Assembly (NCBI GenBank): GCA_017471465.1
Contig: JAFUTI010000004.1
Coordinates: forward strand, 1-64,000
Source of the DNA: Prevotella sp.
Lineage (GTDB): Bacteria; Bacteroidota; Bacteroidia; Bacteroidales; Bacteroidaceae
DNA: 64,000 nucleotides
Direction: 5' to 3'
The notes under the pieces are model-generated. The model was not told where the DNA came from. It ran no database searches and worked only from the letters and a program-made list of their open reading frames with translations. The first letter of the stretch is position 1. Every line of letters starts with the position of its first letter. Position numbers and translations under genes: made by a program. This document shows, in pieces, positions 11,470 to 58,166 of the stretch.

Positions 11470-11497
11470 AGCTATTGGTAACTTTTGTTGTCGGCTA

Positions 11498-11505
11498 CAA
11501 AAGTA
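11498..11505 (-). promoter_or_regulatory. upp promoter -7 box
   Basis: Minus-strand TACTTTTG fits TAnnTTTG and lies about 30 nt upstream of the upp start codon. Confidence 0.5.
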
Positions 11506-11665
11506 CGTATAAAAAACGAAACGGCCAATTTTTTGAAATTCTTTTTGTTATGTAGATGTTGCAAAAGTGTTGCCCATACATTCATTTATAATTGATTTAC
11601 GCTAAAAAACGGAAATTAAAGGCTAATAAATCATAATTCATCATGGGAAATCAACAAAAACTTTG

Positions 11666-11673
11666 TATCTTTG
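11666..11673 (+). promoter_or_regulatory. pckA promoter -7 box
   Basis: TATCTTTG followed by CAGCC, 52 nt upstream of the pckA ATG. This is the commonest form of the Bacteroidetes -7 element in the window. Confidence 0.6.
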
Positions 11674-11725
11674 CAGCCAGATTTAAGGTAATAGGATAAA
11701 TAACAACTAAAATATCATTTAAGTT

Positions 11726-24669: not shown

Positions 24670-24807
24670 CGACGATTTTCCGGATTGCGCAAGACTTTTT
24701 ATGTGGAAAAGCGGAAAAACGGCGTTGTTCTTGACGTAAATCAACACTTTGTGTGCGCAAACAGCAATTTTTTCACGTTTCTCCTTCACCCTTTCGCGGC
24801 ATTTTTG

Positions 24808-24815
24808 TACCTTTG
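24808..24815 (+). promoter_or_regulatory. -7 box of the glycosyltransferase pair
   Basis: TACCTTTG, 24 nt upstream of ATG 24840. An in-frame upstream start at 24753 would precede this box and is rejected. Confidence 0.55.
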
Positions 24816-24839
24816 TCGCAAAATCAGCAATTATCATCT

Positions 24840-26114
24840 ATGAAGGTCCTCATTGTCAACACGAGCGAGAAGACCGGCGGTGCCGCCGTGGCTGCCCACC
24901 GGCTGATGGACGCGCTGAACAACCACGGGGTGAAAGCCCGCATGCTGGTCCGTGATAAGGAGACCGACGCGCTGACCGTCGTCGGTCTGCGGGGCAAGTG
25001 GCGCCAGCAGTGGCACTTCCTCTGGGAACGGCTGGTCATCTTCCTGCACCTGCACTGCAACCGTCAGCGGCTGTTCGAGATCGACATCGCCAATGCCGGC
25101 ACCGACATCACGGGTCTGCGCGAGTTCCGCGAGGCCGACGTCATCCACCTGCACTGGGTGAACCAGGGCATGCTGTCGCTAGGCGTCATCGGCAAGATCC
25201 TGCGTTCGGGGAAGCCGGTGGTATGGACGATGCACGACCTGTGGCCAGCGACAGCCATCTGCCACTATGCCCGCGGCTGCAAGAACTACCGTACAGGCTG
25301 CGCCCACTGCAGGCTGCTGCCCGGCAATGGCAGTGCCAACGACCTGGCCAGCCGCGTCTGGCGGCGTAAGCAGCGCATGCTTGACGGTCAGGACATCAGC
25401 TTCGTGACATGCAGCCAATGGCTGCGCGGCGAGGCCCGGGCCAGCGCCCTGCTCCAAGGCCATCGTGTGACGAGCATCCCCAATGCCATCGACACACGCG
25501 TCTACTGCCCTCGCGACAAGCAGGAAGCCCGCCGGACGGCAGGTCTGCCTGCCGACCGCAAGGTCATACTCTTCGTGTCGCAGCGCGTGACCGACGAGCG
25601 CAAGGGCATGAACTACCTGACGGAAGCCGTCAGACTGATGGTCAGCGACCACCCCGACATGGGCCAGCAGGCGGTCATCGCCATCCTGGGCGGCCACTCC
25701 GAGGGACTTGCCGACCAGCTGTCGCTGCCCGTCCATCCGCTGGGCTATGTCAGCGACGAACGGCAGATTGTCAACATCTACCGCGCTGCCGACGTCTTCG
25801 TCACACCGTCGCTGGAGGACAACCTGCCCAACACCATCATGGAGGCGATGGCCTGCGGCGTGCCCTGCGTGGGCTTCAAGGTGGGAGGCATCCCCGAAGA
25901 GATCGACCACCAGAAGAACGGCTACGTGGCCCGCTATCGCGACGCTGCCGACCTGGCCCGCGGCATCCGCTGGGTGCTCTATGACTCTGCCTACGCCACG
26001 CTGAGCCAACAGGCCGTCACCAAGGTAGCCCATAGCTACTCGCAGCAGAGCGTCGCCCTGCGCTACACCGAACTCTACAACGAGACCATTGCCCAGAAAC
26101 ACTACAAGCTATGA
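24840..26114 (+). CDS. Glycosyltransferase family 4
   Basis: This is a 424-residue GT-B enzyme, probably cytosolic or membrane-associated, that adds a sugar from a nucleotide donor to a surface glycan. MKVLIVNTSEKTGGAAVAAHRL is the N-terminal Rossmann opening. The donor-site motif SLEDNLPNTIMEAMACGVP with the EX7E glutamates lies near 327-335. A four-cysteine motif C-x6-C-x6-C-x2-C (HYARGC...RTGCAHC, about 140-160) follows MHDLWPATAIC. It is recurrent in Bacteroidetes GT4 enzymes and may bind a metal. The stop overlaps the next start (ATGA). Donor and acceptor are unknown. Confidence 0.87.
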   Translation: MKVLIVNTSEKTGGAAVAAHRLMDALNNHGVKARMLVRDKETDALTVVGLRGKWRQQWHFLWERLVIFLHLHCNRQRLFEIDIANAGTDITGLREFREADVIHLHWVNQGMLSLGVIGKILRSGKPVVWTMHDLWPATAICHYARGCKNYRTGCAHCRLLPGNGSANDLASRVWRRKQRMLDGQDISFVTCSQWLRGEARASALLQGHRVTSIPNAIDTRVYCPRDKQEARRTAGLPADRKVILFVSQRVTDERKGMNYLTEAVRLMVSDHPDMGQQAVIAILGGHSEGLADQLSLPVHPLGYVSDERQIVNIYRAADVFVTPSLEDNLPNTIMEAMACGVPCVGFKVGGIPEEIDHQKNGYVARYRDAADLARGIRWVLYDSAYATLSQQAVTKVAHSYSQQSVALRYTELYNETIAQKHYKL

Positions 26115-26899
26115 TACGATTCACGGTTGTCACCATCACCTATAACGCGGAGACGGTGCTGCAACGGACACTCGACAGCGTGCTACACCAGACCTACGAG
26201 GGCGTGGAGCACCTGATTATCGACGGAGCCTCCACCGACGGCACACTACCGATGGCCGAGGCCTACAAACGGCTGTCGGACAGTTCGGACAGCGACCACA
26301 AGGTCATCGTCAAGTCGGAGCCCGACAACGGCATCTACGACGCTATGAACAAGGGACTGACACAGGCCTCGGGCGACTACATCGTCTTCCTGAACGCCGG
26401 CGACAGCTTTCCTCAGGCAGACACGCTCCAGCAGATTGTCCACCGCTGCGGACTGGAGGTGCTGCCCACCGACGACCTGCCCGGCGTGCTCTATGGATAT
26501 ACCGACATCGTCGATGGCGAAGGACGTTTCCTGCGTCACCGCCGGCTACAGCCACCGGCCCGGCTGTCGTGGCGCTCGTTCCGCCAGGGTATGCTCGTCT
26601 GCCACCAGGCCTTCTATGCCCGCACCGACATTGCCAAGAACGTGCAGTACGACACGCGCTACCGCTTCTCGGCCGACGTCGACTGGTGTATTCGCGTGAT
26701 GCACGAGACCGAGCGGCTGGGACTGCCACTATATAATATAGGTATGGTGGTGGCCAACTACCTGGAAGAGGGACAGACCACAAAAAACCACAAGGCATCG
26801 CTCGGCGAGCGATACCTTGTGATGCAGCGCCACTACGGCGTGGTGCAGACCTTCCTGCTACACTGCTGGTTTGCCGTCAGAGCCGTCATTCGCCACTGA
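26111..26899 (+). CDS. Glycosyltransferase family 2 (WcaA-like)
   Basis: This 262-residue GT-A enzyme has FTVVTITYNAETVLQRTLDSV at the N-terminus, LIIDGASTDGT for nucleotide binding, the EPDNGIYDAMNKG segment, and Asp/aromatic residues of the acceptor region (FSADVDWCIRVMHE). It is translationally coupled to the GT4 gene by ATGA, and the two probably act on the same glycan. Its last 14 nt overlap the end of the convergent amylase gene, leaving no room for a terminator. Confidence 0.87.
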   Translation: MIRFTVVTITYNAETVLQRTLDSVLHQTYEGVEHLIIDGASTDGTLPMAEAYKRLSDSSDSDHKVIVKSEPDNGIYDAMNKGLTQASGDYIVFLNAGDSFPQADTLQQIVHRCGLEVLPTDDLPGVLYGYTDIVDGEGRFLRHRRLQPPARLSWRSFRQGMLVCHQAFYARTDIAKNVQYDTRYRFSADVDWCIRVMHETERLGLPLYNIGMVVANYLEEGQTTKNHKASLGERYLVMQRHYGVVQTFLLHCWFAVRAVIRH

Positions 26900-44199: not shown

Positions 44200-44305
44200 C
44201 TGCTTTTTCTTCTTTTAGACGACATACTTAGAGCCAACAGTCCCATATTTACGATTATTTAACATTTTAACACGTCGCTTTCTTGGCCATTTCAATTTTT
44301 CTTCC

Positions 44306-44313
44306 TATCTTTG
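44306..44313 (+). promoter_or_regulatory. -7 box of the Rpn-like gene
   Basis: TATCTTTG followed by CCC, 23 nt before ATG 44337. The longer frame from 44283 would start upstream of it. Confidence 0.55.
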
Positions 44314-44336
44314 CCCAAAAGAAAAAACGTTTTTAT

Positions 44337-44816
44337 ATGGTTAATATAGCGAACCCGATTTACGACATCGTATTCAAGTATCTCATGGAGGACGATGCCG
44401 ATATGAAACACATCGTCCACCGCCTGTTAATGGCTTCTACTGATGCCGACGTACGTCAGGATATGAATGTCGAAGACGAATATTTCGCAGCCATTGAGAA
44501 ACGTGACACGGAAATTATGCTTCGTGACCGCAAACTCGCTGAACAGCAGGTCCAGCTGAGTGAACAGCAGGTCCAGCTGAATGAACAGCAGGTCCAGCTG
44601 AGTGAACAGCAGGTCCAGCTGAGTGAACAGCAGGTCCAGCTGAGTGAACAGCAAGTCCAATTGAGTGAACAGCAGGTCCAGCTGAGTGAACAGCAAAAAC
44701 TATTAGGCTATTCTATTCAGATAATGCAGGATAATGGATTGTCGTTAGAGGCCATTTCAGCAAAATTGGGGAAAAGCGTTGAAGAATTGAAGGAACTCTT
44801 ACAACATCTTTCGTGA
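44337..44816 (+). CDS. Internally deleted PD-(D/E)XK nuclease/transposase (Rpn-type) gene
   Basis: This 159-residue product opens with VNIANPIYDIVFKYLMEDD, the N-terminus of Bacteroidales Rpn/PDDEXK_2 recombination-promoting nucleases. By about residue 40 it jumps to DVRQDMNVEDEYFAAIEKRD, which belongs near the C-terminal part of the roughly 300-residue full proteins. The PD...(D/E)xK catalytic core is missing. The rest is seven exact or near-exact 7-residue repeats (S/A/N-EQQVQL) and the terminal LGYSIQIMQDNGLSLEAISA helix, a predicted coiled coil. A promoter is kept and the frame is open, so a truncated protein may still be made. It is either a decaying gene or a small coiled-coil derivative. 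Confidence 0.75.
   Translation: MVNIANPIYDIVFKYLMEDDADMKHIVHRLLMASTDADVRQDMNVEDEYFAAIEKRDTEIMLRDRKLAEQQVQLSEQQVQLNEQQVQLSEQQVQLSEQQVQLSEQQVQLSEQQVQLSEQQKLLGYSIQIMQDNGLSLEAISAKLGKSVEELKELLQHLS
44538..44684 (+). repeat. Seven 21-nt tandem units encoding EQQVQL heptads
   Basis: Units start at 44538 and every 21 nt thereafter; an eighth is partial. Unit 6 has three synonymous changes, and the others are nearly identical, so copy number probably changes by slippage in whole heptads without breaking frame. Confidence 0.9.
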
Positions 44817-44855: not shown

Positions 44856-45878
44856 TTATCCAAACTTCTCCGCGCCCCTCCATTTTCGGACACGCCGCTT
44901 GACAGAATTCATGATGAACGACCAGTTGCCGTAGCGGATATTCAGAACCAGTTCTTCGAAGGAGCGTCCGACCTTCGTCAGTGGATAGCCCCAGCCCTGA
45001 GCCTTATAGAAGCGCTTCCAATAGCCCACTTCCTCAATCACGTACCTGGGATGACGCAGAGGAAAATCGATGTCATAGCGTTTCATAGTAAACAGCTGTT
45101 TTAGGCGACGGGGTAAGGTGCGGAAGGCCGAATAGTGTGTAGAGTCCTCCGAGGCACCAACATTATTAATCATATTCTTACAGGGCACAATGGCCATGGC
45201 CGAGTTGAAAAGCATAGTCGCCCAGAAGACGCTCTCGAATTGAGGGTGCCCCGTCTCGCGATGGTCGCGACACATTTTGACAAAGCTCTTCCTATAGCCG
45301 CGCTGCTTGATGAGCGCCTCAAGCTGTCGCATACTGAACGCATCGTCAAGGAATGCGTATTCCTTATCCCATTGGTTAACGACCCTGCGCCACGACGCCC
45401 AGCCCCAGATGCTGAAGGCAGAAGTGAAGAAGTAGTCGTAGGGAATGTCGGGCGTCACCTCGTCGACGTTGAAGCCCGCCACCATCGAGATGCGCTCGTC
45501 GTGCTCGTAGCGGTCGAGCATCTCCTTACAGAACGGGAAGAACGACTGCGACGGTACCACGTCGTCCTCAAGCACCATACACTTGTCGGCCAGCGAGAAA
45601 GCCCACTGATGGGACGTATATCCAGCTATCATACAGCCTAAGTTACGCTCCTGATAGTTTCGGTGTACCTCACACTCCCAGTCGATGTTCTCGTCGCTGG
45701 CAATCTGTCGGCAGGCTTCTATACCCGCCATATCGCGCTCGCCACGGGGACCGTCCTGAAAGAGGAACAACCGCGAGGGACGCGCCTTCCTTACTTCGTC
45801 GAATACCTGCTGAAACGTATCAGAACGGGTGAAGAACAACATCAATACTGCGATATCAACTTGAGCTGCTTTTTTCAT
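44856..45878 (-). CDS. Glycosyltransferase (GT-A, hemolysin/GNT-I-like)
   Basis: This 340-residue enzyme has VDIAVLMLFFTRSDTFQQVF at the N-terminus, FLFQDGPRGERD and a metal-binding-type acidic motif CMVLEDDVVPSQSFF (about 103-117). FSIWGWASWRRVVNQWDKEY follows, a segment seen in Bacteroides capsule-locus glycosyltransferases. It is the last gene of the minus-strand glycan operon, 13 nt after the preceding glycosyltransferase. Donor and acceptor are not predictable. Confidence 0.8.
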   Translation of the reverse strand: MKKAAQVDIAVLMLFFTRSDTFQQVFDEVRKARPSRLFLFQDGPRGERDMAGIEACRQIASDENIDWECEVHRNYQERNLGCMIAGYTSHQWAFSLADKCMVLEDDVVPSQSFFPFCKEMLDRYEHDERISMVAGFNVDEVTPDIPYDYFFTSAFSIWGWASWRRVVNQWDKEYAFLDDAFSMRQLEALIKQRGYRKSFVKMCRDHRETGHPQFESVFWATMLFNSAMAIVPCKNMINNVGASEDSTHYSAFRTLPRRLKQLFTMKRYDIDFPLRHPRYVIEEVGYWKRFYKAQGWGYPLTKVGRSFEELVLNIRYGNWSFIMNSVKRRVRKWRGAEKFG

Positions 45879-45891
45879 GTTTTCTTTTTTA

Positions 45892-46728
45892 TTAGTTTTG
45901 CTTTGGTGCTATAGAGGGAAAGAATGTGTATAGGTAGGAACTGATCCAATAGCGTAAAGCGCTGTTCCAACCTTTGTAAGTCCGCAGATAGCGGAAACCA
46001 TAGCGGGGCGAGTTCTTTGGGCTATGCAAGTTCTTCCACCGCTTCTTAAAACTCGCAATACCAGAGTAAGGTGTTTCGGTATGATTGTCAACCACGCCCA
46101 CGTAGCGAGGCGTCAACAGCACACTGAAGCCCTGCTTCTGGACTCTGTAACCGTAATCATGGTCACCGAATGCATGACGATACCCTCGGTCAATCATTCC
46201 TACGGCCTTGTAGACCTGATAGGGGATAAGCACCAAGTTGCCGTTCATCGTCACCACCTTCTGATAACTGCCATCCGGGACTAACCCCTTGTTGTTTTCA
46301 TCCCCGCCGCCGTATGAACAGCAACCCTGATGGTCACAGAAGGCGCCCGTCACGACGCAGCGTTCGCCATTGTCATCCATCGACTTGAATAGCGTCTGTA
46401 AGGCATCGGGGTACAACTCGGAATCATCATTATACCAGAGGAAATAGTCGTAGCCGACACCCGACTCAACAGCCTTCTCCCACGCCATCAGCATACCATG
46501 TCCCCAATAGAGACCGCCATCACCCTTGAACAGTCTGACAGCCGGGAACTCACTACCCACGCTTTCAGACGTCCCGTCCGTAGAACCGTCGTCTACCAGA
46601 TAGACATCAAACGCATAGCCCGGACCTAACCTGTCGATGGCTGCATACAATGTGCGCAGGCTGACAAGCGTCATCTCTCTCCTGTTGAACACCGTCAGTA
46701 AGACGGCTGTCTTCGTCACTTCCGCCAT
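45892..46728 (-). CDS. Glycosyltransferase family 2
   Basis: This 278-residue GT-A enzyme has TAVLLTVFNRREMTLVSLRTL, VYLVDDGSTDGTSE for nucleotide binding, LYWGHGMLMAWEKAV and FLWYNDDSELYPDAL (the metal motif). This is the layout of rhamnosyltransferase-like GT2 proteins. The start overlaps the end of licD by 13 nt, so expression is coupled to the phosphonate/LicD genes. Confidence 0.85.
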   Translation of the reverse strand: MAEVTKTAVLLTVFNRREMTLVSLRTLYAAIDRLGPGYAFDVYLVDDGSTDGTSESVGSEFPAVRLFKGDGGLYWGHGMLMAWEKAVESGVGYDYFLWYNDDSELYPDALQTLFKSMDDNGERCVVTGAFCDHQGCCSYGGGDENNKGLVPDGSYQKVVTMNGNLVLIPYQVYKAVGMIDRGYRHAFGDHDYGYRVQKQGFSVLLTPRYVGVVDNHTETPYSGIASFKKRWKNLHSPKNSPRYGFRYLRTYKGWNSALRYWISSYLYTFFPSIAPKQN

Positions 46729-47654
46729 GAATCCTTTTTCTGTTTGAAATAATCGGTATAAGCCATATCGGGGTCGAAGTAAATGTCATTGGAATGCCAT
46801 TTGCCCCGCTCCTCAACAGGCGGGAAGGCCATATAGTCGCCATATATGTTTCTGAGCACCTTGTCGTAGTTTGCCGGAACAGGAACCGTCATGTTCTCGA
46901 AAGGCAGATAGACCGTCTCGTCCAAATCAGCAGCCTCACACCAGTAGCGTGTGATGAAATACATAGGATGTGTCAGAATCGTCAGCCGCTTAGCGGTAGC
47001 ACTATACTTCCTGAGGTTCTTGTCATACCAGCCTACCACGGTCTCGTAGGGTACCAGTTTGCAGAACGTATGGGCCATCACGCTACGATACAGGCGCCGC
47101 AACAGATTGTTCTGCTGTTTAGGGCGGTATAGTGACACCAGACTGACGAGGGTTTCCTTAACCAGCATCTGGCGCTTGAACGCTGCGCCATCCACATAGC
47201 CGTCCATCACAAAGACGTCAATATAAATGCCGTGATTGTAGTCTGGCGACTCGTGAGCCAGGATGTGCCCCGTTGTCAACGAGTTTCGCAAGCGGGCATA
47301 GCCCTGGCAGAAGTAGCGTCTGTCAGACAAATCCGTCTGTAGGAAATACGGATGGCGGAACTCTGTGGCGGCTATGGCACGAAGCTTCTCAAACTCCGGC
47401 CGCGTCATACACACGTCAATGTCGTCATCCCAGGGAATAAAGCCACGGTGCCTGACGGCTCCCAATAATGTACCAGCAAAGGCAAAGACCTTGATGTCGT
47501 GCTTCTTGCATACCGCCAGCAACTGGTAAAGCAGATCCATCTCAATGGCCCATATCCGTTTCTGCCTTGACGACACTGTATACTCGCACCTGACCTCTTC
47601 CTGAAGGAAGCTATCGTCAAGCGGCATGGTTATCTTCTCTTTAATACTGTTCAT
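46716..47654 (-). CDS. licD: LicD-family phosphotransferase
   Basis: LicD proteins transfer a phospho-alcohol from its CDP-activated form (phosphocholine in the classic case) to a sugar. At 312 aa it shows the family core AFAGTLLGAVRHRGFIPWDD then DIDVCMTRPEFEKL, near 57-90, with the metal-binding Asp cluster. It is coupled by an ATGA overlap to the phosphonoacetaldehyde reductase gene. In this context the likely donor is a CMP-linked phosphonate rather than CDP-choline; no choline kinase or uptake gene is present. That substrate is inference. Confidence 0.87.
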   Translation of the reverse strand: MNSIKEKITMPLDDSFLQEEVRCEYTVSSRQKRIWAIEMDLLYQLLAVCKKHDIKVFAFAGTLLGAVRHRGFIPWDDDIDVCMTRPEFEKLRAIAATEFRHPYFLQTDLSDRRYFCQGYARLRNSLTTGHILAHESPDYNHGIYIDVFVMDGYVDGAAFKRQMLVKETLVSLVSLYRPKQQNNLLRRLYRSVMAHTFCKLVPYETVVGWYDKNLRKYSATAKRLTILTHPMYFITRYWCEAADLDETVYLPFENMTVPVPANYDKVLRNIYGDYMAFPPVEERGKWHSNDIYFDPDMAYTDYFKQKKDSWRK

Positions 47655-48757
47655 AGCGGTTTGTCAATGATGGTATGGTACAATCCCATGATGGCCTCTG
47701 CGTCGAGTTCTACGGGGTTGTTACGCAGACGGATAGGGTTGACGGAAGTGCTCAGCGTGTGTAATTCTTCATCCCGCTTTTCCGACGATACAGGATTCTG
47801 CAGGCCCAGCACTTTCATCATTTCGCGGAAACAGCCGATGGCCGACGGAACGTCGGCTACCTGCATAGCCTGTGCTATTTCTTTGAAAGTAGCCTGTAGA
47901 TAGCCGGTTCCCCGACGGTCGATACAACGGTCGGGATGACTCTGCATATACTGCCAGATTTCTGGTAAACAGACTGCTACGGCATGGCCGTGTGGCAATT
48001 TGTAGAGCGACGTAATCTTATAGCTGAAAGCGTGGGGCGCCGTCGTCTGCGTGATACAGATGGCACGGCCGGCCAGGTTGGCTGCGGCCATCACTTGCCA
48101 GGCTGCCTCATCGGAATTATCGAAGATGTAGTCGCGCCACCAGTGCATAATGGTTGTCACGGCTTTTTCCGAAAGACATCTGCTTTCGTCCGTACTGTTC
48201 ACCGACCACCACGACTCTATGCCCTGACATAAGGCATCCATCATCGTACACTTTTTCTGATAGACCGGCAGCGTCTTCAGCACCTGTGGTTCCAAGATGG
48301 CCACGTTGGGTATGATGCTCTCATGCGTCACACTTTGTTTCTTTCCACCATAATATATTACGGCGAAGCGGGTCGACTCACTGCCCGTGCCGGCTGTGGT
48401 AGGAATAGCAATGAGCTGCACGCCCGTGTCGTGGTATTCTTGTTCCAGGAAAAGCTTGTCTGCCGGCATCCGGCAATACAGCTTGATACACTTTGCCACG
48501 TCGATAGTACTTCCGCCTCCAACGGCGAGAATGGTGTCACACTGCTCTTGATTGAACAGTTCAACACCCTTACAGACGTCCTCGTACAGCGGATTGGGAG
48601 TAAACTGGTCGAACTTGACAAAAGGCACGCCTATGCTCTCGACGGTCGTCTTAATACTTAGGAACGGGAATGAGCCGTCGCAAACCAGCATAACCTTCCT
48701 GCTGTCTGCCACTACGCCGTTCAGGTGCTCTATACCGTTCAAAATCTGTTGTGCCAT
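47651..48757 (-). CDS. Iron-type alcohol dehydrogenase, probable phosphonoacetaldehyde reductase
   Basis: This 368-residue group III alcohol dehydrogenase has the nucleotide motif AVGGGSTIDVAKC (about 79-91), PTTAGTGSESTRFAV, and metal-binding residues in MDALCQGIESWW and KLPHGHAVAVCLP. It lies between phosphonopyruvate decarboxylase and LicD, starting 1 nt after the decarboxylase stop. It therefore most likely reduces phosphonoacetaldehyde to 2-hydroxyethylphosphonate, as in known hydroxyethylphosphonate pathways. An AEP transaminase gene is absent, which supports an alcohol rather than an amine product. Confidence 0.82.
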   Translation of the reverse strand: MAQQILNGIEHLNGVVADSRKVMLVCDGSFPFLSIKTTVESIGVPFVKFDQFTPNPLYEDVCKGVELFNQEQCDTILAVGGGSTIDVAKCIKLYCRMPADKLFLEQEYHDTGVQLIAIPTTAGTGSESTRFAVIYYGGKKQSVTHESIIPNVAILEPQVLKTLPVYQKKCTMMDALCQGIESWWSVNSTDESRCLSEKAVTTIMHWWRDYIFDNSDEAAWQVMAAANLAGRAICITQTTAPHAFSYKITSLYKLPHGHAVAVCLPEIWQYMQSHPDRCIDRRGTGYLQATFKEIAQAMQVADVPSAIGCFREMMKVLGLQNPVSSEKRDEELHTLSTSVNPIRLRNNPVELDAEAIMGLYHTIIDKPL

Positions 48758-48758
48758 A

Positions 48759-49886
48759 TCAGTCCTCCAAAAAATCCATCAGGGCTTCCTTGTTCTGTAC
48801 AGGCGTGGTCGTGGGACGGCCCAAATCCTTGCGGTTGCCCTTCTTCACACACACCTGTAGCAGCATCGGCCCTGCCTGTTGCTTTACGTCGTCCAACCGT
48901 GCCGTCAGTTCCTCCAGTGTACTGACGCTATAGGCATGGGCATAGCCCACGGCCTTGGCTATGGCGGGCAAGTCGATGTCGAGACCTACCGTCGGCTGGC
49001 CGCCAACAGAGTCGTGAGCACCATTATTAAAGACGACGTGAACATAATTCCGAGGGCGCTTGCTGGCCACGATAGCCAAACCGCCCATGTGCATAATGGC
49101 TGCACCGTCGCCGTCGAAGCACCAGACGCGGCGCTCTGGCTTCTCCATAGCGATACCCAATGCTATCTGACTGGCGTGACCCATGGAGCCAACCGTCAGG
49201 AAGTCGCGCTCGTGACCTTCGCCTTTCGCCGTACGGTATTCGAAGAGTTCGCGGCTGATCATGCCCGTTGTTGACACTATCACGTCCCGTGGGGCTAATG
49301 CCGCCGCCACGGTCTGAATGGCGTCTTCACGTGTCATCGTCAAGTCGTTAAGCACGACATTCTGTAGCGCATAGCTATCGAACGTGTCCTTTTCAACGAC
49401 TAGCGCAAAAACCTCACCTGTCTCGTGCATATAGTCGACGGCCGCCTTGACCTGCGCTGCCGCCTGAACCTCGTCCTTGCTAAGCACCTCATACCTGACG
49501 CCCATCGTCTCCAGCAGTGTCAGCGTCACCTTCCCCTGTTTCACGTGCTGCGGCTCGTCGTGTACGCCGGGACGTCCGCGCCAGCCTATCAGCAGCAGGA
49601 CGGGAATGTTGTACACATCCTTGTCGGTCAGCGAAGCCAGCGGGTTAATGATGTTTCCCTCGCCTGAGTTCTGCATATAGACGACGGGAATCTGGCGCGT
49701 GGCCAGATAGTGCCCTGCGGCCACACCCAGTGCACCGCCCTCGTTGGCAGCGATAATGTTATGCGTGGCATCGGCATGGTCTGTGATGTAGGCACAGAGT
49801 TGCTTCAACAGGGAGTCGGGCACGCCGGCATAGAAGTTTATGCCGTTGGATGCCAGGGTATCGTAGAAGAATGAAGGACGTATCAT
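48759..49886 (-). CDS. aepY: Phosphonopyruvate decarboxylase
   Basis: This TPP-dependent enzyme converts phosphonopyruvate to phosphonoacetaldehyde plus CO2, pulling the unfavourable mutase step. The start [19 protein letters not shown] (49886) gives 375 aa; the upstream extension is out of family. The N-domain has [14 protein letters not shown] and [16 protein letters not shown] (catalytic Glu). The C-domain TPP motif runs from [14 protein letters not shown] to [16 protein letters not shown]. The ATGA overlap with the mutase stop shows tight coupling. Confidence 0.93.
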
Positions 49887-51190
49887 TTCGTGCCGGGAAT
49901 AAGTTCTAAGATTTCCTTGATGGGCATACATAGACTGTTGGCTTCGTATGAGCGGCCGTTGGCCAGGATAGACTCGGCACACTGTACCATTGCCGGGTAG
50001 GCAGCGCGCAGCAAGTGGTTGGCATAGATGACGACGTTGACGCCCCAAGATGCCAGTTCGTCCTCGGTAATCTGGTTGTAAGTCGTAGGCACTACCACAA
50101 TGGGCACAGAGGCGTTCTTAGCTCGCAATCGCTGGCAGAACTCCTTGATGTCCTCGCCCGTCTGTTCTTTGCTGTGAATCATGATGCCGTCGGCCCCTGC
50201 CTCGATATAGGCCAAGGCGCGCTCCATAGCATCGTCAATGCCCTTGCCGGCAATGAGGCTCTCAATACGGGCTATCAGCATGAAGTCGCTGGTTATCTGT
50301 GCCCGTTTGCCTGAACGTATTTTCTCGCAGAAACCCTCTATGGTGTCTTGTTCCTGTTTCACCTCCGTGCCGAAGAGAGAGTTCTTCTTCAGTCCTACTT
50401 TGTCCTCGATGATAATCGCCGAGATGCCCAGTCGTTCCAGCGTGCGCACGGTAAAGGCCAGATGTTCTGGCTTGCCCCCCGTATCGCCGTCGAAGATGAC
50501 GGGCTTGGTGGTCACCTCCAAAGCATCGTTCAGGTCGTGCAGTCGTGTTGTCAGGTCAACGGCCTCGATGTCGGGCTTGCCTTTTGACGTCGAGTCGGTT
50601 AGCGAACTGGCCCACATACCGTCGAACTCGTGTTTCATATTGTTAATCATTACCGATGTATTCTCGATAATCAGACCTGTCAGTCCGCTGTGCGACTCGC
50701 AGAATCGCACAATCTTCTTGGCACCGATGAGCCGGCGGAGACGCTTCAGACGGACGTCGGGCGTCGTGCCGATTTCCTTCAGACGCTCATTCAGCATCGT
50801 CGAGGATATACCTTTGGTGTAGGGCACGTCTATGACCTTGCCGCCCCATTCCGCCAGCTTCTCGATAATCTGCTGACGGGTCTTTGCCTGTACACCCTGT
50901 TTCCAGTCGTCGCCGTGAACCACGTAGTCTGGTTTGATTTTCTCCAGATTCGGGCGGTAGTCAAGCGTCGTCTGGGGTATCACCTCTGAAACGCCTTTCA
51001 GGTCACTGACTATCAGTGAGCGCTGTTCGTAGTTCAAGTAGGGCAGCCGCTTGTAGCTGGCAATGGCCGCGTCGGTCAGTACGCCCACGATGACGCGTCC
51101 GTATTTCTGGGCTTCATGCAGGATGTTGAGATGTCCCGGGTGTATGATGTCGGCACTCATGCCGACGTAAACTATCTTTTCTTTTTCCAT
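49883..51190 (-). CDS. aepX: Cytidylyltransferase-PEP mutase fusion
   Basis: This is a 435-residue two-domain protein. Residues 1-140 are a nucleotidyltransferase of the glycerol-3-phosphate cytidylyltransferase type ([20 protein letters not shown] with the HPGH signature, and ISSTMLNER). Residues about 150-435 are PEP mutase, which rearranges PEP to phosphonopyruvate, with the diagnostic [13 protein letters not shown] loop (EDKx5NS). The product is the committed step of almost all phosphonates. The fused transferase domain should activate the finished phosphonate with CTP for LicD. B. fragilis uses AepX/AepY with a transaminase in a capsule locus; here a reductase replaces it. Confidence 0.95.
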
Positions 51191-51209
51191 TTATATTCTG
51201 TTCTTACTG

Positions 51210-52376
51210 TTATTTGTTCTTCTTCAAGCTTTTTAACCAGCGCTTCTTCTCCTTCAGAAAGTTGTAGACGTCGCAGCCTTTCAGATAGAGGAGGTCCCCA
51301 AGTTTATCCCATAGGCTGTAGCGTCGTGGTTTCATCTGCTGCTTGATGTTGAGACAGTTGCGCAGCGACTCAACGGGCGTCTCGAAGAACAGGTGGTGGA
51401 GCGCCTGCCTCTGCTTCTCCAACAGACGCTCGTAAAGGGCGTCGTCGGCATCGAGGCGGCGCATCAGCTGAAGCACTTCCTCTGACGTACCGACATTACA
51501 CTCGTCGATAATCAGTTCGCCGTGGGTCACCTCGTCGCGGTTCATAATGGCCAATGTACCTAACGACACGGCCTCTGCCACGGAGTTGCCACGGATGGGG
51601 CGTCCGCCAATCTTTACGAAGTATTTTGAGTCGTAGATGGCCATCAGGTTGTCACTGATTTTCGGCTTGTGCAGGTGGATGGCGTAGCCTGCTTCCTGAA
51701 TAGGTAGGAACTGAGGCGGCACCTTGTCACGGTCCTTGGCCACGGAGTTGATTTCCACAAACACGCCATCGCGCTTCGAAGCGCGTCTTACCTTGGAATG
51801 AATGATGCGCTCCAGGGTGTCACGCCCCACGAAGGTATAGGGGAAGTCCACCTCACCTAAGCCGTTGGCCACTATACCGCGTGCCATTTGGTTCAGCGTG
51901 ATGTCGTAGCCGAAGCGTGCCTTGCCCATAGCCATATTTGCCTCACCAATCATATAGGCAAAGAGGGTCTTAGGGTACTGCTTCACCACCTCCGTAGGCA
52001 GACAGACATTGACGGAAATGACGACATCATACTGCCCCCAGTCTACGTCATGGCAGTCGACGGAGAAGTCGCCATTGGCATGGTCGGTCTCCAACTGCCA
52101 TTTTTCATAGCCCGGCACCTGGTTCAGCGGCTTCGTCTTCAGCAGCGGCAGCATCCAGACGATATGAGGGATTACCTTTTTGTAAATCTGCGTTTCGGGG
52201 GCTGGCTCTTCCTTGACAATATAGAAGTCGGCTCCCAGCTCGCTCACCAGACCAATAGGTCCCACCCGCATCATTGAGCTGAACAGTACGTTGGCTGCCG
52301 ATTTCTCGGTGACAGGACAAACGTACAAATCCTGATAGACATCCTGCTTCAGAAGCGCTATTCTCAAATCCTCCAT
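51210..52376 (-). CDS. Probable glycosyltransferase (GT-B-like), first gene of the phosphonate operon
   Basis: This is a 388-residue protein from MEDLRIALLKQDVYQDLYVC (52376); the upstream frame crosses the promoter. The C-terminal half has GRPIRGNSVAEAVSLGTLAI and NVGTSEEVLQLMRRLDADDA, the donor-site arrangement of GT1/GT4-like enzymes (Glu in an S-x-x-E-A-x-x-x-G pattern). The N-terminal half (SMMRVGPIGLVSELGADFYI, PHIVWMLPLLKTKPLNQVPG) is not recognised. It lies 19 nt upstream of the mutase gene in the same direction and has its own -7 box. Role: probably building the glycan that receives the phosphonate. Confidence 0.65.
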   Translation of the reverse strand: MEDLRIALLKQDVYQDLYVCPVTEKSAANVLFSSMMRVGPIGLVSELGADFYIVKEEPAPETQIYKKVIPHIVWMLPLLKTKPLNQVPGYEKWQLETDHANGDFSVDCHDVDWGQYDVVISVNVCLPTEVVKQYPKTLFAYMIGEANMAMGKARFGYDITLNQMARGIVANGLGEVDFPYTFVGRDTLERIIHSKVRRASKRDGVFVEINSVAKDRDKVPPQFLPIQEAGYAIHLHKPKISDNLMAIYDSKYFVKIGGRPIRGNSVAEAVSLGTLAIMNRDEVTHGELIIDECNVGTSEEVLQLMRRLDADDALYERLLEKQRQALHHLFFETPVESLRNCLNIKQQMKPRRYSLWDKLGDLLYLKGCDVYNFLKEKKRWLKSLKKNK

Positions 52377-52398
52377 GAGCTTTTTCGCATTTTTGCTG

Positions 52399-52437
52399 CA
52401 AAGGTATAAATTTATTATGAAATATTTTGTATCTTTG
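52399..52437. promoter_or_regulatory. Divergent -7 boxes: phosphonate operon and acyltransferase
   Basis: Minus-strand TACCTTTG (52406-52399) points to the glycosyltransferase-aepX-aepY operon. Plus-strand TATCTTTG (52430-52437) points to the acyltransferase. The boxes are only 23 bp apart. Confidence 0.6.
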
Positions 52438-52470
52438 CACCAAAAATACTTAAAAACAGAATACATACGT

Positions 52471-53565
52471 ATGGAAACAGTAGCAAAGAAGCCCCGGTTG
52501 GAATGGTTGGACGCTCTCAGAGGGTTCACGATGATTCTTGTTGTAGCCTATCACGTAGCACTTATCGGATTCTCCGAGCAGCACAATTTGTCGTCTTCAA
52601 TGCGCTTCCTCGTCCTTTTCCGTATGCCGCTGTTCTTCTTCGTCAGTGGTTTCCTGGCTTACAAGGCAGGGCTGGTGTGGAATATGGGCACGCTCAAAAG
52701 TCTGCTGCTGAAGAAAATCAGGGTGCAGACCATACCAACCGTCGTCTTCTTCTTCTTTGGCGTAGCTATCCTGGGCGGCTATTTTCTGCCCACGACACTG
52801 AAATGGTTAGCACTGCCGACGAAGGGCGGCTACTGGTTCACCATTGTGCTGCTTTATATGTTCATCGTCTACTACCTGTTCTGCTACGTTGAGGAGTTAC
52901 TGAAGAAGCATTTCCCGAAGATGCCTTCGTGGCTGCCCATAGCCGTGCTCTTCGTCATCTCGCTGGTCTGCTACGACACCTGCTACCAGCCTCATTACTT
53001 CAGTTGGGCCCAGGGGAGAAAGGGGCCTGGCAATGAGTTCATGAACTACAGCAGCTTCGGGCAGCTCTTCATGTACTTCCCTTATTTCGTCTATGGCAAC
53101 GCCGTGCGCCGCTACTGGGACCAGGCCCAGCGCCTCATGGACTCCAAATGGTTTTATCCTGCACTTGTCATGCTGGCCATGTATGCTTGGCTCGACTCAC
53201 AGAAATGGCATTGGCTACACGCTGCCTGGGCCGTCATACCACTGACGTTGGCACGCATCTCGCTGTTGACGATAGTCTTTATGTACTTCCGCCACTACCA
53301 CCAGTACTTTACGCAGCGGACGGTCATCGGCGCCAGCTTGCAGTATATCGGCCGACGTACGCTCGACATCTACCTTATCCACTTCCTTTTCATGCCCAAC
53401 CTGCCTACCATCGGCACCTACTTCAACCAGTATCGCCACAATTTCGCCATTGACACCACGCTCTCCCTGCTGATAGCCCTCATCGTCATTGGCTTCAGCA
53501 TCATAGCGTCGAACATCCTTCGCGTCAGTCCGTTCTTCAAGAAGTGGCTCTTCGGAAGGGGATAA
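52471..53565 (+). CDS. Membrane acyltransferase (acyltransferase 3 / fucose 4-O-acetylase-like)
   Basis: This 364-residue integral membrane protein has about ten TM helices and opens RLEWLDALRGFTMILVVAYH with the catalytic-type His after R-G. FRMPLFFFVSGFLAYKAG follows, the second family motif. Such enzymes O-acetylate surface sugars using acetyl-CoA. Start METVAKKPRLEW lies 33 nt after its -7 box. It is the only plus-strand gene inside the glycan locus, sharing the divergent promoter region with the phosphonate operon. Confidence 0.87.
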   Translation: METVAKKPRLEWLDALRGFTMILVVAYHVALIGFSEQHNLSSSMRFLVLFRMPLFFFVSGFLAYKAGLVWNMGTLKSLLLKKIRVQTIPTVVFFFFGVAILGGYFLPTTLKWLALPTKGGYWFTIVLLYMFIVYYLFCYVEELLKKHFPKMPSWLPIAVLFVISLVCYDTCYQPHYFSWAQGRKGPGNEFMNYSSFGQLFMYFPYFVYGNAVRRYWDQAQRLMDSKWFYPALVMLAMYAWLDSQKWHWLHAAWAVIPLTLARISLLTIVFMYFRHYHQYFTQRTVIGASLQYIGRRTLDIYLIHFLFMPNLPTIGTYFNQYRHNFAIDTTLSLLIALIVIGFSIIASNILRVSPFFKKWLFGRG

Positions 53566-53572
53566 GCAGCCC

Positions 53573-54563
53573 TCACCAATAGCAGTTCCCCTCCACCTTG
53601 TCGGAGTCCTTGGGTTTGGTGGTGGCGTCAGGTCTTATCCAATGCTCGTTCATCAGGTTGACGTAGAAGCCCTTGGGCAGTCCCCATCGCTCTACACCGT
53701 GCATCGGATTAAGCCAGCGATGGCCTGTGATGCCAAACAGCAACTGGCTGACGCCACCAAGATGGATGGCCTGCTTACCTTGGCGCTTGGCATAGGCTGC
53801 TAACGGAAAACCATAGGCTCCGCATCCTAATATGCAGACGTCGTACTCGATCTTGTCCATTTCTTGCTCCATCCAATGTAAGGCAGAAAACCAGTCGTCA
53901 TATCCACATGATTCACTATTATTCCCATAGCTTTGTACGGCTTTGATGACATGGAGCTCTTTAAAAGTAGGAAGCACATTGTCGGAGAACAACAACCGCC
54001 GCTTTTCATATTGCCGGCGTATCAGTTCATCAAAAGGATGAACGACAAGCACCTTCCTGCCTTCCAAAGCCCTGCTCCAAGGCTTTTTGGCAAGCCAGGG
54101 TTCTAAACAGGGGAGGGCTACCTTGTAGGCATTCTTTAATAGATGGCTGACGGCAATCTCTTCATTCAGCCAGCTTCCCAGGATGTCTACCTGCTGCGAG
54201 TCTTCAAGCATCATCTCGCTGAAGCGGTATAGATGTTCATTGTCTATGGGGAAGAAACCTGCTGCATGCTTCATCTGCATCAATATGTGCTTGTTCCACC
54301 ACCAGGGACCATTCTTTCGCGTCATATACCCATGCATCTCCCCGATGTTCCGTAATGCCCAAATAGTTGAACACGGTCGTCAGTTCGTTGGCACCGTATC
54401 TGGCTATCATGCAAGGTTTGCCACTTGCCAGCAGTTCGTAGATTCTGTCTCCAGCCCTGTCAGGGTCTGACTCAAAGGTGAGCAACGATGTCTTCGGGTA
54501 CCAGTATTTAGTATAAATACGACGTCCTGCCGTTAGGGCCTTATGGTAGAAATTCAAACTCAT
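53573..54563 (-). pseudogene. Frameshifted glycan-locus gene (GT-D-like?)
   Basis: Two overlapping minus-strand frames read as one protein. The first (54563-54237) runs MSLNFYHKALTAGRRIYTKY to CMIARYGANELTTVFNYLGI, then turns to nonsense after EHRG. The second (to 53573) begins MHGYMTRKNGPWWWNKHILM and continues to CILGCGAYGFPLAAYAKRQG and the end. The switch lies at or just before 54338-54350, where the minus strand has a GGGGAGATG run (54343-54335), so a one-base gain in the G-run or loss of a GA fits. The R-Y-G-x-x-E motif resembles GT-D-fold transferases. The start overlaps the flippase stop (ATGA). Could be a sequencing error. Confidence 0.75.
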
Positions 54564-56020
54564 TGTGCGTGCTTTTTAAAAGGGAATTTTACTTTGCTTT
54601 CGAAGAAATCGAGACTCTCACGGAATATGGCCGAACCTAAGAGCCACAGTACCAGAACGTAGAGCGATGCCACAAACAGCACCTTGGCAGCAAACCTGAT
54701 GTAGATGTTCGCTATGGGCTCCGTAATGACCTGCGCCGAAAGCACCAATGCTACAGTAATGAAAAAATAGGGCGAAATGTCCTTCACGACTTCATATAGC
54801 GTAAGACCTATCCAGCTTCGCGACAGCCGATACCACACCCAAAACCAGCCGACAGCTATTCCTACATACACCTTAATCATCATCCCCATCCCGTAGGGCG
54901 CTGAGACGAAGACCGCCGCCAACTGAACCGCTCCTAAAACGGTGTGACACCACATGAAGCGTGAAGACTGGCCATGGCTGACCATGTAATAGGAAAACAG
55001 GTTGGATAGCGGGTAGAAAGCCCCCATCACGCACAGCCACTGCAGGATGATGGCACTGTCAAGCCACTTCTCGCCAAGCAGGATGACAATAAACTCGTGT
55101 GACACCAGTGCCAGGCCAAGCATAGCGGGGAAACTGACAAAGGCGGTGAAGCGCAGCAGTTTCCTGAAGATACGTTTCTGGCGTTCGGGTTCGTCGTCGG
55201 TTTTAGCCAGTACTGGCTGAGCTATGCCGCTGAGCATGTTGTTGATGAGCGACCACCCCATATTGTTCCACTTGCTGGCTTGTGTGTAATTGCCAACCAC
55301 ACTAGCCGGGAATTTACGTCCCAGAATGACGGAAAACATATTCGTGTTGAATATCACCACCAGACTGGTGACCATCAGCTTGCTGCTGAAGCCTATCATC
55401 TCGCGTACCGGAGAGAAATCCACAGGCAGCGTGGGATGCCAGCGGGCATACCAGAAGTTAAGACCCGTCGTGACGCCTACATATACAAGAGACTGGGTCG
55501 CTATGCCCCAGTAGGCAAAGTCCGCTGCGGCCATACACACCCCCACGATTCCCGACAGTAGAAGACCGACGAAGTTCACGATGGCCGTCTCGCGAACCTT
55601 CATGTTCCGGAAGAGGATGGCCCGTGGCGCAATGCCAAGACTTGAGATGAAAAAGCCAAGAAAGATAAAGCGCGCCAAGGGCACAAGCCGTGGCTCGTGA
55701 TAGAAGCGCGCTATAAGTGGGGTACAGAGAGCGAAAATGACATAAAGGAGAAGGCTCGTCAGCGTGCAAGTCCAGAACACGGCGTTATAATCCTTGTGAC
55801 TCGCCTCCTTGCGCCTGTTCAGAGCTGAGATGAACCCGCCCTCCTGCAGTGAGTTTGCCACAAGGGAGAAGATGGTGAGCATACCCACCAGACCATAATC
55901 CTCGGTGCTCAGCAACCGTGCCAGAAAGATGCCAAATACAAGGTTCAGCATCTGCTGCAACACGTTGCTTAGTCCACCCCAGAACAGACCTTTAGCGGTC
56001 TTCTCCTTCAATGTGTCCAT
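54560..56020 (-). CDS. Oligosaccharide flippase (Wzx/MOP family)
   Basis: This 486-residue inner-membrane flippase has 12-14 TM helices and opens KTAKGLFWGGLSNVLQQML then NLVFGIFLARLLSTEDYGLV, the polysaccharide-synthase signature. It moves undecaprenyl-linked repeat units to the periplasm. It lies 40 nt downstream of metG on the same strand, followed by the frameshifted gene with ATGA coupling. No Wzy polymerase or chain-length regulator is visible in the window. Confidence 0.9.
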   Translation of the reverse strand: MDTLKEKTAKGLFWGGLSNVLQQMLNLVFGIFLARLLSTEDYGLVGMLTIFSLVANSLQEGGFISALNRRKEASHKDYNAVFWTCTLTSLLLYVIFALCTPLIARFYHEPRLVPLARFIFLGFFISSLGIAPRAILFRNMKVRETAIVNFVGLLLSGIVGVCMAAADFAYWGIATQSLVYVGVTTGLNFWYARWHPTLPVDFSPVREMIGFSSKLMVTSLVVIFNTNMFSVILGRKFPASVVGNYTQASKWNNMGWSLINNMLSGIAQPVLAKTDDEPERQKRIFRKLLRFTAFVSFPAMLGLALVSHEFIVILLGEKWLDSAIILQWLCVMGAFYPLSNLFSYYMVSHGQSSRFMWCHTVLGAVQLAAVFVSAPYGMGMMIKVYVGIAVGWFWVWYRLSRSWIGLTLYEVVKDISPYFFITVALVLSAQVITEPIANIYIRFAAKVLFVASLYVLVLWLLGSAIFRESLDFFESKVKFPFKKHAQ

Positions 56021-56060: not shown

Positions 56061-58166
56061 TCATCCCACCTGACAGCCGGGCTTGACGTCCTTCGTCGTG
56101 GTGACTACGCTCAGGCTCTCGTCGGCATCGACGGCCGAGAGAATCATGCCCTGGCTCTCGATGCCCATCATCGTGCGCGGCGCGAAGTTGGCCACGAAGA
56201 GGATGCGCTTGCCCACGAGCGCCGACGGGTCGTCGTAGAACTGGGCGATGCCCGAGCAGATGGTGCGGTCGGTGCCTGAACCGTCATCGATGGTGAACTG
56301 CAGGAGCTTCTTCGACTTCTTCACCTTTTGGCAGTCCTTCACCAAGCCCACACGGATGTCGAGCTTCTCAAAGTCCTCGAAGCTAACCGTTTCCTTGATG
56401 TCAGCAGGCTTGAAGGCGGCAGCCTCATTGGCTTTCTTGGTGGCTTCCAGCTTGTCGAGCTGCTTCTGTATGACGTCGTCCTCAATCTTCTCGAACAGCA
56501 GCTGCGGCTCGCCTAACTGGTGGCCAGCCTGCAACAGGTCGGTGCTGCCCAGCTGCTCCCACTCAAAGCTGTCGATGTTAAGCATCTCGCGGAGTTTTTT
56601 ACTCGAGAACGGCAGGAACGGCTCGAAGGCAATAGCGAGGTTGGCCGTCAGCTGCAGACAGATGTTCAGGATGGTTTCGCAGCGCTTCGGGTCGGTCTTC
56701 CACACTTTCCACGGCTCGCAGTCGGTGATGTACTTGTTGCCGATGCGGGCCAGGTTCATGGCCTCAAACTGTGCGTCGCGGAACTTGAACTGCTCCAGCA
56801 GGTTTTCCACCTTGGCCTTCACGTCCTTGAACTCCTCCAGGGCTTGACGGTCAACGTCGGTCAGTTCGCCGCAGGCGGGAACGACGCCGTTCCAGTATTT
56901 CTTCGTCAGCTGCAGGGCACGGTTGACAAAATTGCCATAGACGGCCACCAGCTCGTTGTTGTTGCGGTCCTGGAAGTCCTTCCACGTGAAGTTGTTGTCC
57001 TTGGTCTCAGGGGCATTGGCGGTCAGCACGTAGCGCAGCACATCCTGCTTGCCGGGCATGTCCTCCAGGTATTCGTGCAGCCAGACGGCCCAGTTCCTTG
57101 AGGTCGAAATCTTGTCGTTCTCCAGGTTCAGGAACTCGTTGGCGGGCACGTTGTCGGGCATGATGAAGCCTCTCCCGGCCCCTCCGAGGGAGGGGAGCTT
57201 GTTTGCGTCGTTCCAGGCCTTCATCATCGTGGGGAAGATGATGCAGTGGAACACGATGTTGTCCTTGCCGATGAAGTGTACCAGACGGGTGTCCTCGTCC
57301 TGCCACCACTTGCGCCAGTCACCCCATTTCTCTGGCTCCTTCTCACACAGTTCTACCGTGTTCGACACATAGCCGATGGGGGCGTCGAACCATACGTAGA
57401 GCACCTTGCCGTCGGCTCCTTCCACGGGCACGGGGATACCCCAGTCCAGGTCGCGAGTCATGGCGCGGGGCTGCAGGTCCATGTCGAGCCACGACTTGCA
57501 CTGGCCGTAGACGTTAGGACGCCACTCTTTGTGCTCCTCCAAGATCCACTTCTTCAACCAGTCCTGATACTCGTTCAGAGGCAGATACCAGTTCTTGGTC
57601 TTCTTCAGTACTGGAGTAGAACCGCTGATAGTAGACTTCGGGTTGATGAGCTCTGTAGGACTCAAGTCACGTCCGCACTTCTCACACTGGTCGCCATAGG
57701 CTCCCTCATTGTGGCAGTAAGGACACTCACCTACGACATAACGGTCGGCCAAAAACTGTTTGGCTTCCTCGTCGTAGAGCTGCTCGGTGGTCTCCTCAGT
57801 CAGTTTGCCCTCGTCGTAGAGTTTCTTAAACCACTCTGCAGCAAACTTATGGTGAGTCTCGGAGGTGGTGCGGCTATAGATATCAAAAGATATTCCAAAC
57901 TCCTCGAAAGAGTCCTTGATCATCTTGTGATAACGGTCAACTACATCCTGCGGAGTGATACCCTCCTTACGGGCACGAACCGTAATGGGCACACCGTGCT
58001 CGTCGGAACCGCCAATGAACATGACGTCGCGCTTCTTCAGACGCAGATATCTCACGTAAATGTCTGCCGGTACGTAGACGCCGGCCAGATGTCCGATGTG
58101 CACACCACCGTTGGCGTATGGTAGAGCCGACGTAACGGTTATTCTCTTGTATTTTTTCTCTTCCAT
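56061..58166 (-). CDS. metG: Methionine--tRNA ligase
   Basis: This class I synthetase charges tRNA-Met. The start [20 protein letters not shown] (58166) gives 701 aa. The HIGH motif is [10 protein letters not shown], the CP-domain zinc knuckles are [18 protein letters not shown], and the KMSKS loop reads [11 protein letters not shown]-terminal Trbp111 OB-fold tRNA-binding domain occupies about 595-701. Near residues 319-334 the protein has an extra [15 protein letters not shown] between MMKA and [11 protein letters not shown], where relatives have only a few residues. The insert is encoded by a GC palindrome (57171-57197). Confidence 0.95.
57171..57197. repeat. GC-rich palindromic piece inserted in frame in metG
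   Basis: CCCCTCC-GAG-GGAGGGG (57179-57195) is a perfect 7-bp stem, with CTCCCGG and AG on the outside. The GGCCCC...CGAGGG core matches the korA element. It encodes LPSLGGAGR in a loop before the KMSKS region, preserving frame. Confidence 0.75.

Follow-up and report, generated by a model that had tools for sequence, protein, structure and literature searches.

Two questions are raised by a phosphonate gene cluster in a Prevotella sp. genome: which phosphonate it makes, and to which glycan the product is attached. The cluster lies in a 64,000-nucleotide stretch of DNA, the window (assembly GCA_017471465.1, contig JAFUTI010000004.1, positions 1 to 64,000), where seven tightly packed minus-strand genes include a cytidylyltransferase (CyTase)-phosphoenolpyruvate (PEP) mutase fusion, a phosphonopyruvate decarboxylase (Ppd), an iron-type alcohol dehydrogenase (ADH) and a LicD-type phosphotransferase. 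We consider it reasonably probable that the locus is the form which the general protein O-glycosylation locus of Bacteroidota (metG, then wzx and variable glycosyltransferases) takes in this rumen member of the Prevotellaceae, with a built-in donor cassette for 2-hydroxyethylphosphonate (HEP). The source genome comprises 2.40 Mb in 53 contigs and is 63% complete. The same gene order, with a 100% identical fusion, occurs in the record "uncultured Prevotellaceae bacterium isolate RUG200" (L171), one of the RUG genomes, which we take to be of rumen origin; being near-identical to the window, L171 is no independent evidence.

An earlier note on this DNA had described the order, strand and tight packing of the operon, and the coordinates and sequence of the open reading frames (ORFs) bear this out. 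In the order of transcription, a predicted glycosyltransferase gene (51210-52376) is followed after 19 nt by the fusion gene (49883-51190, 435 aa), whose stop overlaps the ATG of the Ppd gene at 49886 by 4 nt (ATGA). The Ppd gene (48759-49886) is separated by 1 nt from the ADH gene (47651-48757), which shares a 4-nt ATGA overlap with licD (46716-47654). The licD gene overlaps a GT2 glycosyltransferase gene (45892-46728) by 13 nt, and after another 13 nt comes the last gene (44856-45878), predicted to encode a GT-A glycosyltransferase. Spacings of 1-19 nt and overlaps of 4, 4 and 13 nt match the note's description of gaps under 20 nt with several overlaps; its range, beginning at 45892, left the second downstream glycosyltransferase outside.

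Pfam and NCBIfam support the family of five of the seven genes. The fusion matches PF01467 (55.5 bits, cut-off 21), PF13714 (191.5, cut-off 31.5) and the PEP mutase model TIGR02320 (410.4, over the cut-off of 319.55), Ppd matches TIGR03297 (515.5, cut-off 312.5), the ADH PF00465 (123.5, cut-off 31.3), LicD PF04991 (132.6, cut-off 22.6) and the GT2 gene PF00535 (45.9, cut-off 23.3). No Pfam or NCBIfam model matched the first or the last gene, and a profile of the first gene found no relative among solved structures (best E 0.65). Both are putative glycosyltransferases by gene context and GT-fold-like residues; the glycosyltransferase label given earlier to all three genes thus has a family match for GT2 alone. 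The diagnostic motifs reported before are real. HPGH, ISST and the ten-residue mutase loop are all found in the fusion, the PEP mutase motif EDKX5NS is present there, and the LicD Asp motif lies in a block (GTL-GA-RH-GFIPWDDD-D) common to the seven rows aligned. For LicD, a sequence search of solved structures gave no match at E<=0.01.

The CyTase domain bears directly on the identity of the phosphonate. Its best solved relative is the CyTase domain of Fom1 (PDB 5x3d) at 198 bits, followed by ethanolamine-phosphate cytidylyltransferase at 69 and glycerol-3-phosphate cytidylyltransferase at 44. Fom1 moves cytidine monophosphate (CMP) onto HEP, and both cytidylylated phosphonates and fused CyTase-PEP mutase proteins are already known (PMC6697681). 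To place the window fusion among its relatives, we surveyed 399 genomes of the family, 61 of which carry a fusion relative at E<=1e-40, and added named loci, the best 80 of 579 relatives in a species collection, together with one locus from a Segatella copri plasmid record. The resulting 145 fusion ORFs, 138 after identical ones were dropped, are an uneven sample that leans to the window's kin, 77 named rows having been chosen for closeness to the window. Each fusion was scored for its CyTase motifs and for recognised same-strand genes up to 5 kb away. Neighbours were called by BLAST against chosen NTP3, 2-aminoethylphosphonate (AEP) transaminase and ADH references, which divergent genes can escape; the NTP3 label was checked with Pfam in three proteins (the S. 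copri fusion, 34.4 bits; L194, 50.9; L126, 44.6; cut-off 27).

Motif and neighbours vary together in this set. An ADH without NTP3 lies near 50 of the 138 fusions, the window's among them; all 50 have HxGH, and all have SS[ST] at the end of ISST. Another 18 with an ADH nearby have an NTP3 domain fused in front; 17 of these have HxGH and one has NSAH, and ISST is lost in 18 of 18. An AEP transaminase is found near 44 fusions, with HPGL in 44 of 44 and an NTP3 gene in 39. Neither gene was recognised near the other 26 (22 HPGL, three HxGH and one fragment lacking the domain), and none of the 138 has both. The window itself has HPGH and no NTP3 gene within 5 kb. Taken together, the family survey, the plasmid record and the window supply 61 rows, which contain two of the 50 ADH-without-NTP3 fusions (the window and L068), 23 of the 44 transaminase fusions and all 19 three-domain fusions; the remaining 48 of 50 and 21 of 44 come from the 77 named rows. 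Among the 77 distinct named-locus fusions, a set chosen for closeness to the window, 48 have the layout of a two-domain fusion with an ADH.

Identity to the Fom1 CyTase domain follows the same division. The window domain is 61.8% identical to it, and the 50 two-domain HxGH rows span 59.6-72.1%. The 66 HPGL rows span 46.3-58.8%, a narrow margin below the two-domain HxGH rows; the 19 three-domain rows lie at 40.4-52.2%, and two further rows, of the L064 kind described below, at 41.2%. In this superfamily the second histidine of HxGH is needed for catalysis. Our reading of the comparison is that the CyTase domain retained in AEP clusters is dead and its task falls to a separate PntC, and that in two-domain HEP clusters the fused domain is the one at work. 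The idea that a fused CyTase by itself implies HEP was rejected; because the same fusion is also found in AEP clusters, the state of the motif is needed to call HEP. For the window, the fusion probably makes phosphonopyruvate through its mutase and CMP-HEP through its N-terminal Fom1-like domain. The HEP route put forward in the earlier note, with the ADH as reductase and the fused domain making CMP-HEP, is supported by this comparison, in which ADH and transaminase never stand together near a fusion.

When only the PEP mutase domain is used for a quick tree, three changes are needed for the HxGH/HPGL label (five if two odd rows are counted as a third state) and three for the ADH/transaminase label. 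Motif and neighbouring gene have therefore switched jointly on more than one occasion, though on few. Domain exchange by recombination may be the source of these joint changes.

Some loci depart from both patterns. In L064 a radical SAM-SPASM protein (10553-12034, domains scanned in that locus) is fused to a CyTase that keeps HPGH and VSST, motifs also present in ORFs of L065 and L066 (the three loci belong to genomes G217, G351 and G297). The radical SAM-CyTase gene stands between an ISST-less CyTase-PEP mutase fusion and Ppd, with no ADH or AEP transaminase recognised nearby, and in L064 a DegT/DnrJ-type aminotransferase gene follows Ppd. Perhaps such loci represent a third fate of the phosphonate. 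Six loci titled Fibrobacter (L188, L193, L195, L196, L199 and L202) have HPGL, and neither an ADH nor a transaminase nor an NTP3 gene was recognised on the same strand up to 5 kb away; LicD genes lie on the opposite strand in L195, L196, L199 and L202. In Segatella copri DSM 18205 (L034, NZ_CP085933.1), a three-domain HEP-type cluster is followed by a gene of the CDP-glycerol glycerophosphotransferase family, not LicD, and its CyTase motif is NSAH, with the first histidine lost.

The reductase assignment was examined through the distribution of the ADH. At E<=1e-60 the window ADH has 20 matches in 19 of the 399 family genomes (own included), and 19 of these matches, in 18 of the 19 genomes (own included), fall in fusion-bearing genomes. 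The exception, in genome G300, is 46% identical, lies near a contig end and groups with the ADHs of two HEP-type loci on the ADH tree. That tree splits the HEP-locus ADHs into two large groups, and therefore different iron-type ADHs probably serve. One other iron-type ADH was seen in the own genome. The window ADH is 58% identical to a Segatella copri protein that NCBI names "phosphonoacetaldehyde reductase", an annotation and not an assay; none of its 16 NCBIfam matches bears that name.

The earlier note had seen no transaminase at the locus and had proposed checking the rest of the genome. In the 63%-complete genome none is over the cut-off: against the AEP transaminase model no protein scores above 41.6 bits (cut-off 360.8), and the two strong class-V aminotransferases are both over the SufS cut-off. 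The search is able to detect the enzyme, because it was found over the cut-off in 35 of the 60 other fusion-bearing genomes. PF12804 has seven matches elsewhere in the own genome, at 26.7-47.4 bits, and a distant PntC may be among them.

We next consider the glycan. In Bacteroides the O-glycosylation locus opens with metG and wzx, continues with variable genes and closes with two conserved glycosyltransferases (PMC12871550). In the window, metG (56061-58163, minus strand; NF001100, 858.7 bits, cut-off 587) and a wzx for a putative O-glycosylation-type flippase (54560-56020, minus strand; best match NF058658 Oglyco_Wzx, 663.6 bits, under the cut-off of 720, E 2e-199) adjoin each other upstream of the phosphonate block, followed by a GT-D-like gene in two overlapping frames (53573-54563, minus strand; PF22882, 23.2 bits, under the cut-off of 27). 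The upstream limit of the locus had been drawn too early, as these three genes appear to be part of it. Counting the own genome, 283 of the 399 family genomes have a relative of this wzx at E<=1e-100. Among the first 19 wzx loci retrieved, metG and wzx are neighbours in 12 (L115-L126; in two of these one ORF intervenes) and not in the other seven.

Both end genes of the operon point the same way. Relatives of the first gene were found in 16 of 301 genomes (own included) and lie 3.6-4.7 kb from wzx in seven of the seven other genomes in which the place of wzx is known. For the last gene, 98 of 399 genomes contain a relative (own included); both places are known in 37 of them (own included), and in 24 of these 37 the relative and wzx are no more than 12 kb apart. 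Because their relatives adjoin this wzx elsewhere, both end genes look like O-glycosylation genes. The window also holds, at 24753-26899 on the plus strand, a side-by-side pair of glycosyltransferases (GT4, 453 aa, PF13692 99.3 bits; GT2, 262 aa, PF00535 86.7 bits) whose identities to the two terminal glycosyltransferases of L126 are 52% and 50%. Since the phosphonate block lies downstream of metG-wzx and between glycosyltransferases whose relatives often adjoin that wzx, the acceptor is likely the general protein O-glycan of Bacteroidota and not a capsule. Of the proposal that LicD puts HEP on a glycan, the LicD family and motif stand, and the unspecified surface polysaccharide then envisaged, like the B. 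fragilis capsule, is less supported.

In two congeners (L221 and L232), metG and wzx are followed by a 240-aa gene, a 350-aa short-chain dehydrogenase/reductase (SDR)-like gene, LicD and the last glycosyltransferase; the 240-aa gene of L221 is IspD-like at 156.5 bits, under the cut-off of 181.3. The window wzx is 57% identical to that of L115, from another genus, versus 43% and 42% to those of L221 and L232, where metG is 92% identical. This hints that the O-glycosylation locus may have been exchanged between genera.

Phosphonate cassettes beside such a wzx recur. The fusion has an O-glycosylation-type wzx on its own strand, no further than 5 kb away and with at least 40% identity, in the window, in its near copy L171, and in L138, L165 and L194. 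The cassettes of L138 and L165 are of the ADH-HPGH (HEP) kind and that of L194 of the NTP3-transaminase-HPGL (AEP) kind, each on the strand of wzx and galE. L165 and L194 have syntenic flanks (GalE 96%, what we read as a KdsC-like gene 91%, and a downstream 487-aa gene 87% identical), and at the syntenic site L165 carries an ADH where L194 carries NTP3 and a transaminase. Of 20 further loci that contain a last-gene relative (L215-L234, mostly chosen for a nearby wzx), 13 have LicD directly in front of it, and donors in loci of this type are IspD-like, alone or SDR-fused (scanned in L217, L220 and L221). Other such loci combine an NTP3-aminotransferase (CobD/HisC-like) fusion with LicD and an octopine-dehydrogenase-like gene (found by scanning in L126 and by BLAST in L216 and L219), and these loci perhaps encode a phospho-amino-alcohol donor. 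For the wider proposal we see about even chances: the general protein O-glycan of rumen Bacteroidota would be phosphonate-decorated, with swappable HEP, AEP, phospho-alditol or phospho-amino-alcohol cassettes around LicD and a partner glycosyltransferase. In the HEP version the Fom1-like domain would work, and in the AEP version the second histidine would have been lost and a separate PntC would have taken over.

Several observations weigh against placing HEP on a protein O-glycan in this organism. On the chemical side, the ADH is under every curated equivalog cut-off (best TIGR03405, PsrA, 141.4 versus 423.7), a missing transaminase proves little because the genome is 63% complete, and the correlation of motif and neighbour covers related sequences with few independent events, 77 of the 138 rows having been chosen for closeness. 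On the side of the acceptor, the window wzx is under the O-glycosylation flippase cut-off of 720, and so are those of L138, L165 and L194 (650.7-652.9 bits); the four wzx scanned against NF058658 besides that of the window, these three included, gave 650.7, 651.3, 652.9 and 834.1 bits. In 13 of the 37 genomes wzx is not close to the relative of the last gene, and the terminal glycosyltransferase pair does not close the locus, lying about 18 kb from the operon on the plus strand. A membrane acyltransferase gene on the opposite strand (52375-53565, plus strand, divergent from the operon; PF01757, 80.1 bits, cut-off 31; its true start is probably further in) separates wzx and the GT-D-like gene from the phosphonate genes, and the GT-D-like gene is frameshifted in this assembly. 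Finally, only five of the 138 fusions adjoin an O-glycosylation-type wzx, so most such cassettes serve other glycans.

Some of these points lend weight to a reading that we regard as unlikely, though the least so among the alternatives: CMP-HEP is made, LicD places HEP on a capsule, exopolysaccharide or lipopolysaccharide, and metG-wzx is a loose neighbourhood. The scarcity of fusions beside wzx and the sub-threshold wzx fit it, as does the finding that, among the 11 fusion-bearing family genomes in which the place of wzx is known (own included; 44 of the 61 genomes entered), fusion and wzx share a contig in the window only; AEP on the B. fragilis capsule is moreover known (PMC6697681). Arguing the other way are the relatives of both end genes beside this wzx, the phosphonate cassettes of L138, L165 and L194 beside such a wzx, and the finding of no polymerase, chain-length or capsule-export family among the 12 window proteins scanned. 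The locus might also be decaying, with no finished glycan in this strain, as the frameshifted GT-D gene could indicate; we find this scarcely probable, as the phosphonate genes are open and the GT-D-like gene is one intact 330-aa ORF in near-identical L171, which makes an assembly error as likely.

Other readings concern the chemistry. The final group could be AEP, made by a transaminase whose gene the assembly lacks, with another role for the ADH; that the genome is only 63% complete and that an AEP transaminase stands beside 44 of the 138 fusions gives this some footing. It is nonetheless very improbable given that no fusion has both genes, that HPGL is the motif of all 44 AEP-type fusions, 39 of them with an NTP3 gene, and that the window shows HPGH without one. 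We likewise attach very little credence to the fused CyTase and the ADH acting on another substrate, such as an alditol or glycerol phosphate, with the phosphonate genes serving something else: the low ADH scores and the related O-glycosylation loci with IspD- or ribitol-5-phosphate-cytidylyltransferase-like donors would agree with it, but the CyTase scores favour Fom1 by far (198 bits against 69 and 44) and the relatives of the ADH travel with the fusion. That HEP is an intermediate of a diffusible phosphonate, an antibiotic or methylphosphonate, with LicD and the glycosyltransferases as bystanders, is hardly credible. Fom1, the closest characterised CyTase, does belong to fosfomycin synthesis, but the operon is tightly coupled with LicD and glycosyltransferases, and no dioxygenase, methyltransferase or epoxidase family was seen among ten scanned proteins (two operon genes match nothing; HEPD and MpnS were not searched genome-wide).

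The HEP-bearing O-glycan that we favour shares features with several known systems. Like the LFG locus of B. fragilis, a Bacteroidota O-glycosylation locus, the window has metG, then wzx and variable glycosyltransferases, and relatives of both its end genes occur in such loci; unlike LFG, it has a phosphonate donor pathway, its terminal glycosyltransferases lie about 18 kb away and its wzx is under the curated cut-off. The fusion resembles Fom1 in having an N-terminal CyTase (62% identical, HPGH and ISST intact) fused to PEP mutase, but is accompanied by LicD and glycosyltransferases, whereas Fom1 serves a diffusible antibiotic. HEP is reportedly carried by phosphonoglycans of Glycomyces and Stackebrandtia, in work by Yu in 2014; these share HEP on a bacterial glycan with our proposal, but are actinobacterial exopolysaccharides and not protein O-glycans. 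With Pnt/AEP tailoring clusters (B. fragilis capsule, Treponema denticola PntC) the window shares PEP mutase, Ppd, cytidylyl activation and a proposed LicD-type transfer, but it has a reductase in place of the transaminase and would activate with its PF01467 domain and not with a PF12804 PntC (Rice 2019, PMC6697681).

The O-glycan of P. intermedia carries, by mass spectrometry, a phosphate-linked sugar alcohol on HexNAc, HexNAc(HPO3-C6H12O5) (PMC10897501). This too is a phosphate-linked alcohol as a side branch of a protein O-glycan, but a phosphate ester of a sugar alcohol and not a phosphonate, and the IspD/SDR/LicD loci look like candidate genes for a branch of this type. In marine Prochlorococcus and SAR11, phosphonylated O-glycoproteins have been proposed and phosphonate was recovered in the protein fraction; their phosphonate genes, like those of the window, lie near wzx, and also near an O-glycosylation enzyme, but theirs is a PglL-type oligosaccharyltransferase system and the window a Bacteroidota one (Acker 2022, PMC8931226). 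A literature search of partial coverage found no paper linking phosphonates to the Bacteroidota O-glycosylation locus and none on HEP in a Bacteroidota O-glycan; the pathway itself is not unique to the window.

Beyond the operon, an ORF with QVQLSEQ repeats has 177 aa in the window (44283-44816) and 367 aa in L171 (16378-17478); its repeat number or reading start seems to differ between the two.

The genes, their order, their catalytic motifs and the comparative correlations are observed; the reactions in this organism, the CyTase substrate, the acceptor sugar and the protein destination are predicted from sequence. In the proposed scheme, PEP mutase would convert PEP to phosphonopyruvate, Ppd would convert this to phosphonoacetaldehyde, the iron-type ADH would reduce the aldehyde to HEP and the Fom1-like domain of the fusion would yield CMP-HEP, a route to the activated donor that the comparisons support. 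LicD would then take HEP from CMP-HEP and attach it to a sugar in the lipid-linked outer glycan; Wzx would flip the glycan, with proteins at D(S/T)X sites as the end point. The glycan would be expected to show a mass shift of +107.998 Da for HEP, against +107.014 for AEP. If this is true, it would place carbon-phosphorus chemistry on the glycoproteins of gut Bacteroidota. A sequence rule, HPGH with ADH versus HPGL with transaminase, would then tell from a genome which phosphonate is made, and the role of the PEP mutase-fused CyTase domain would be explained for each case.

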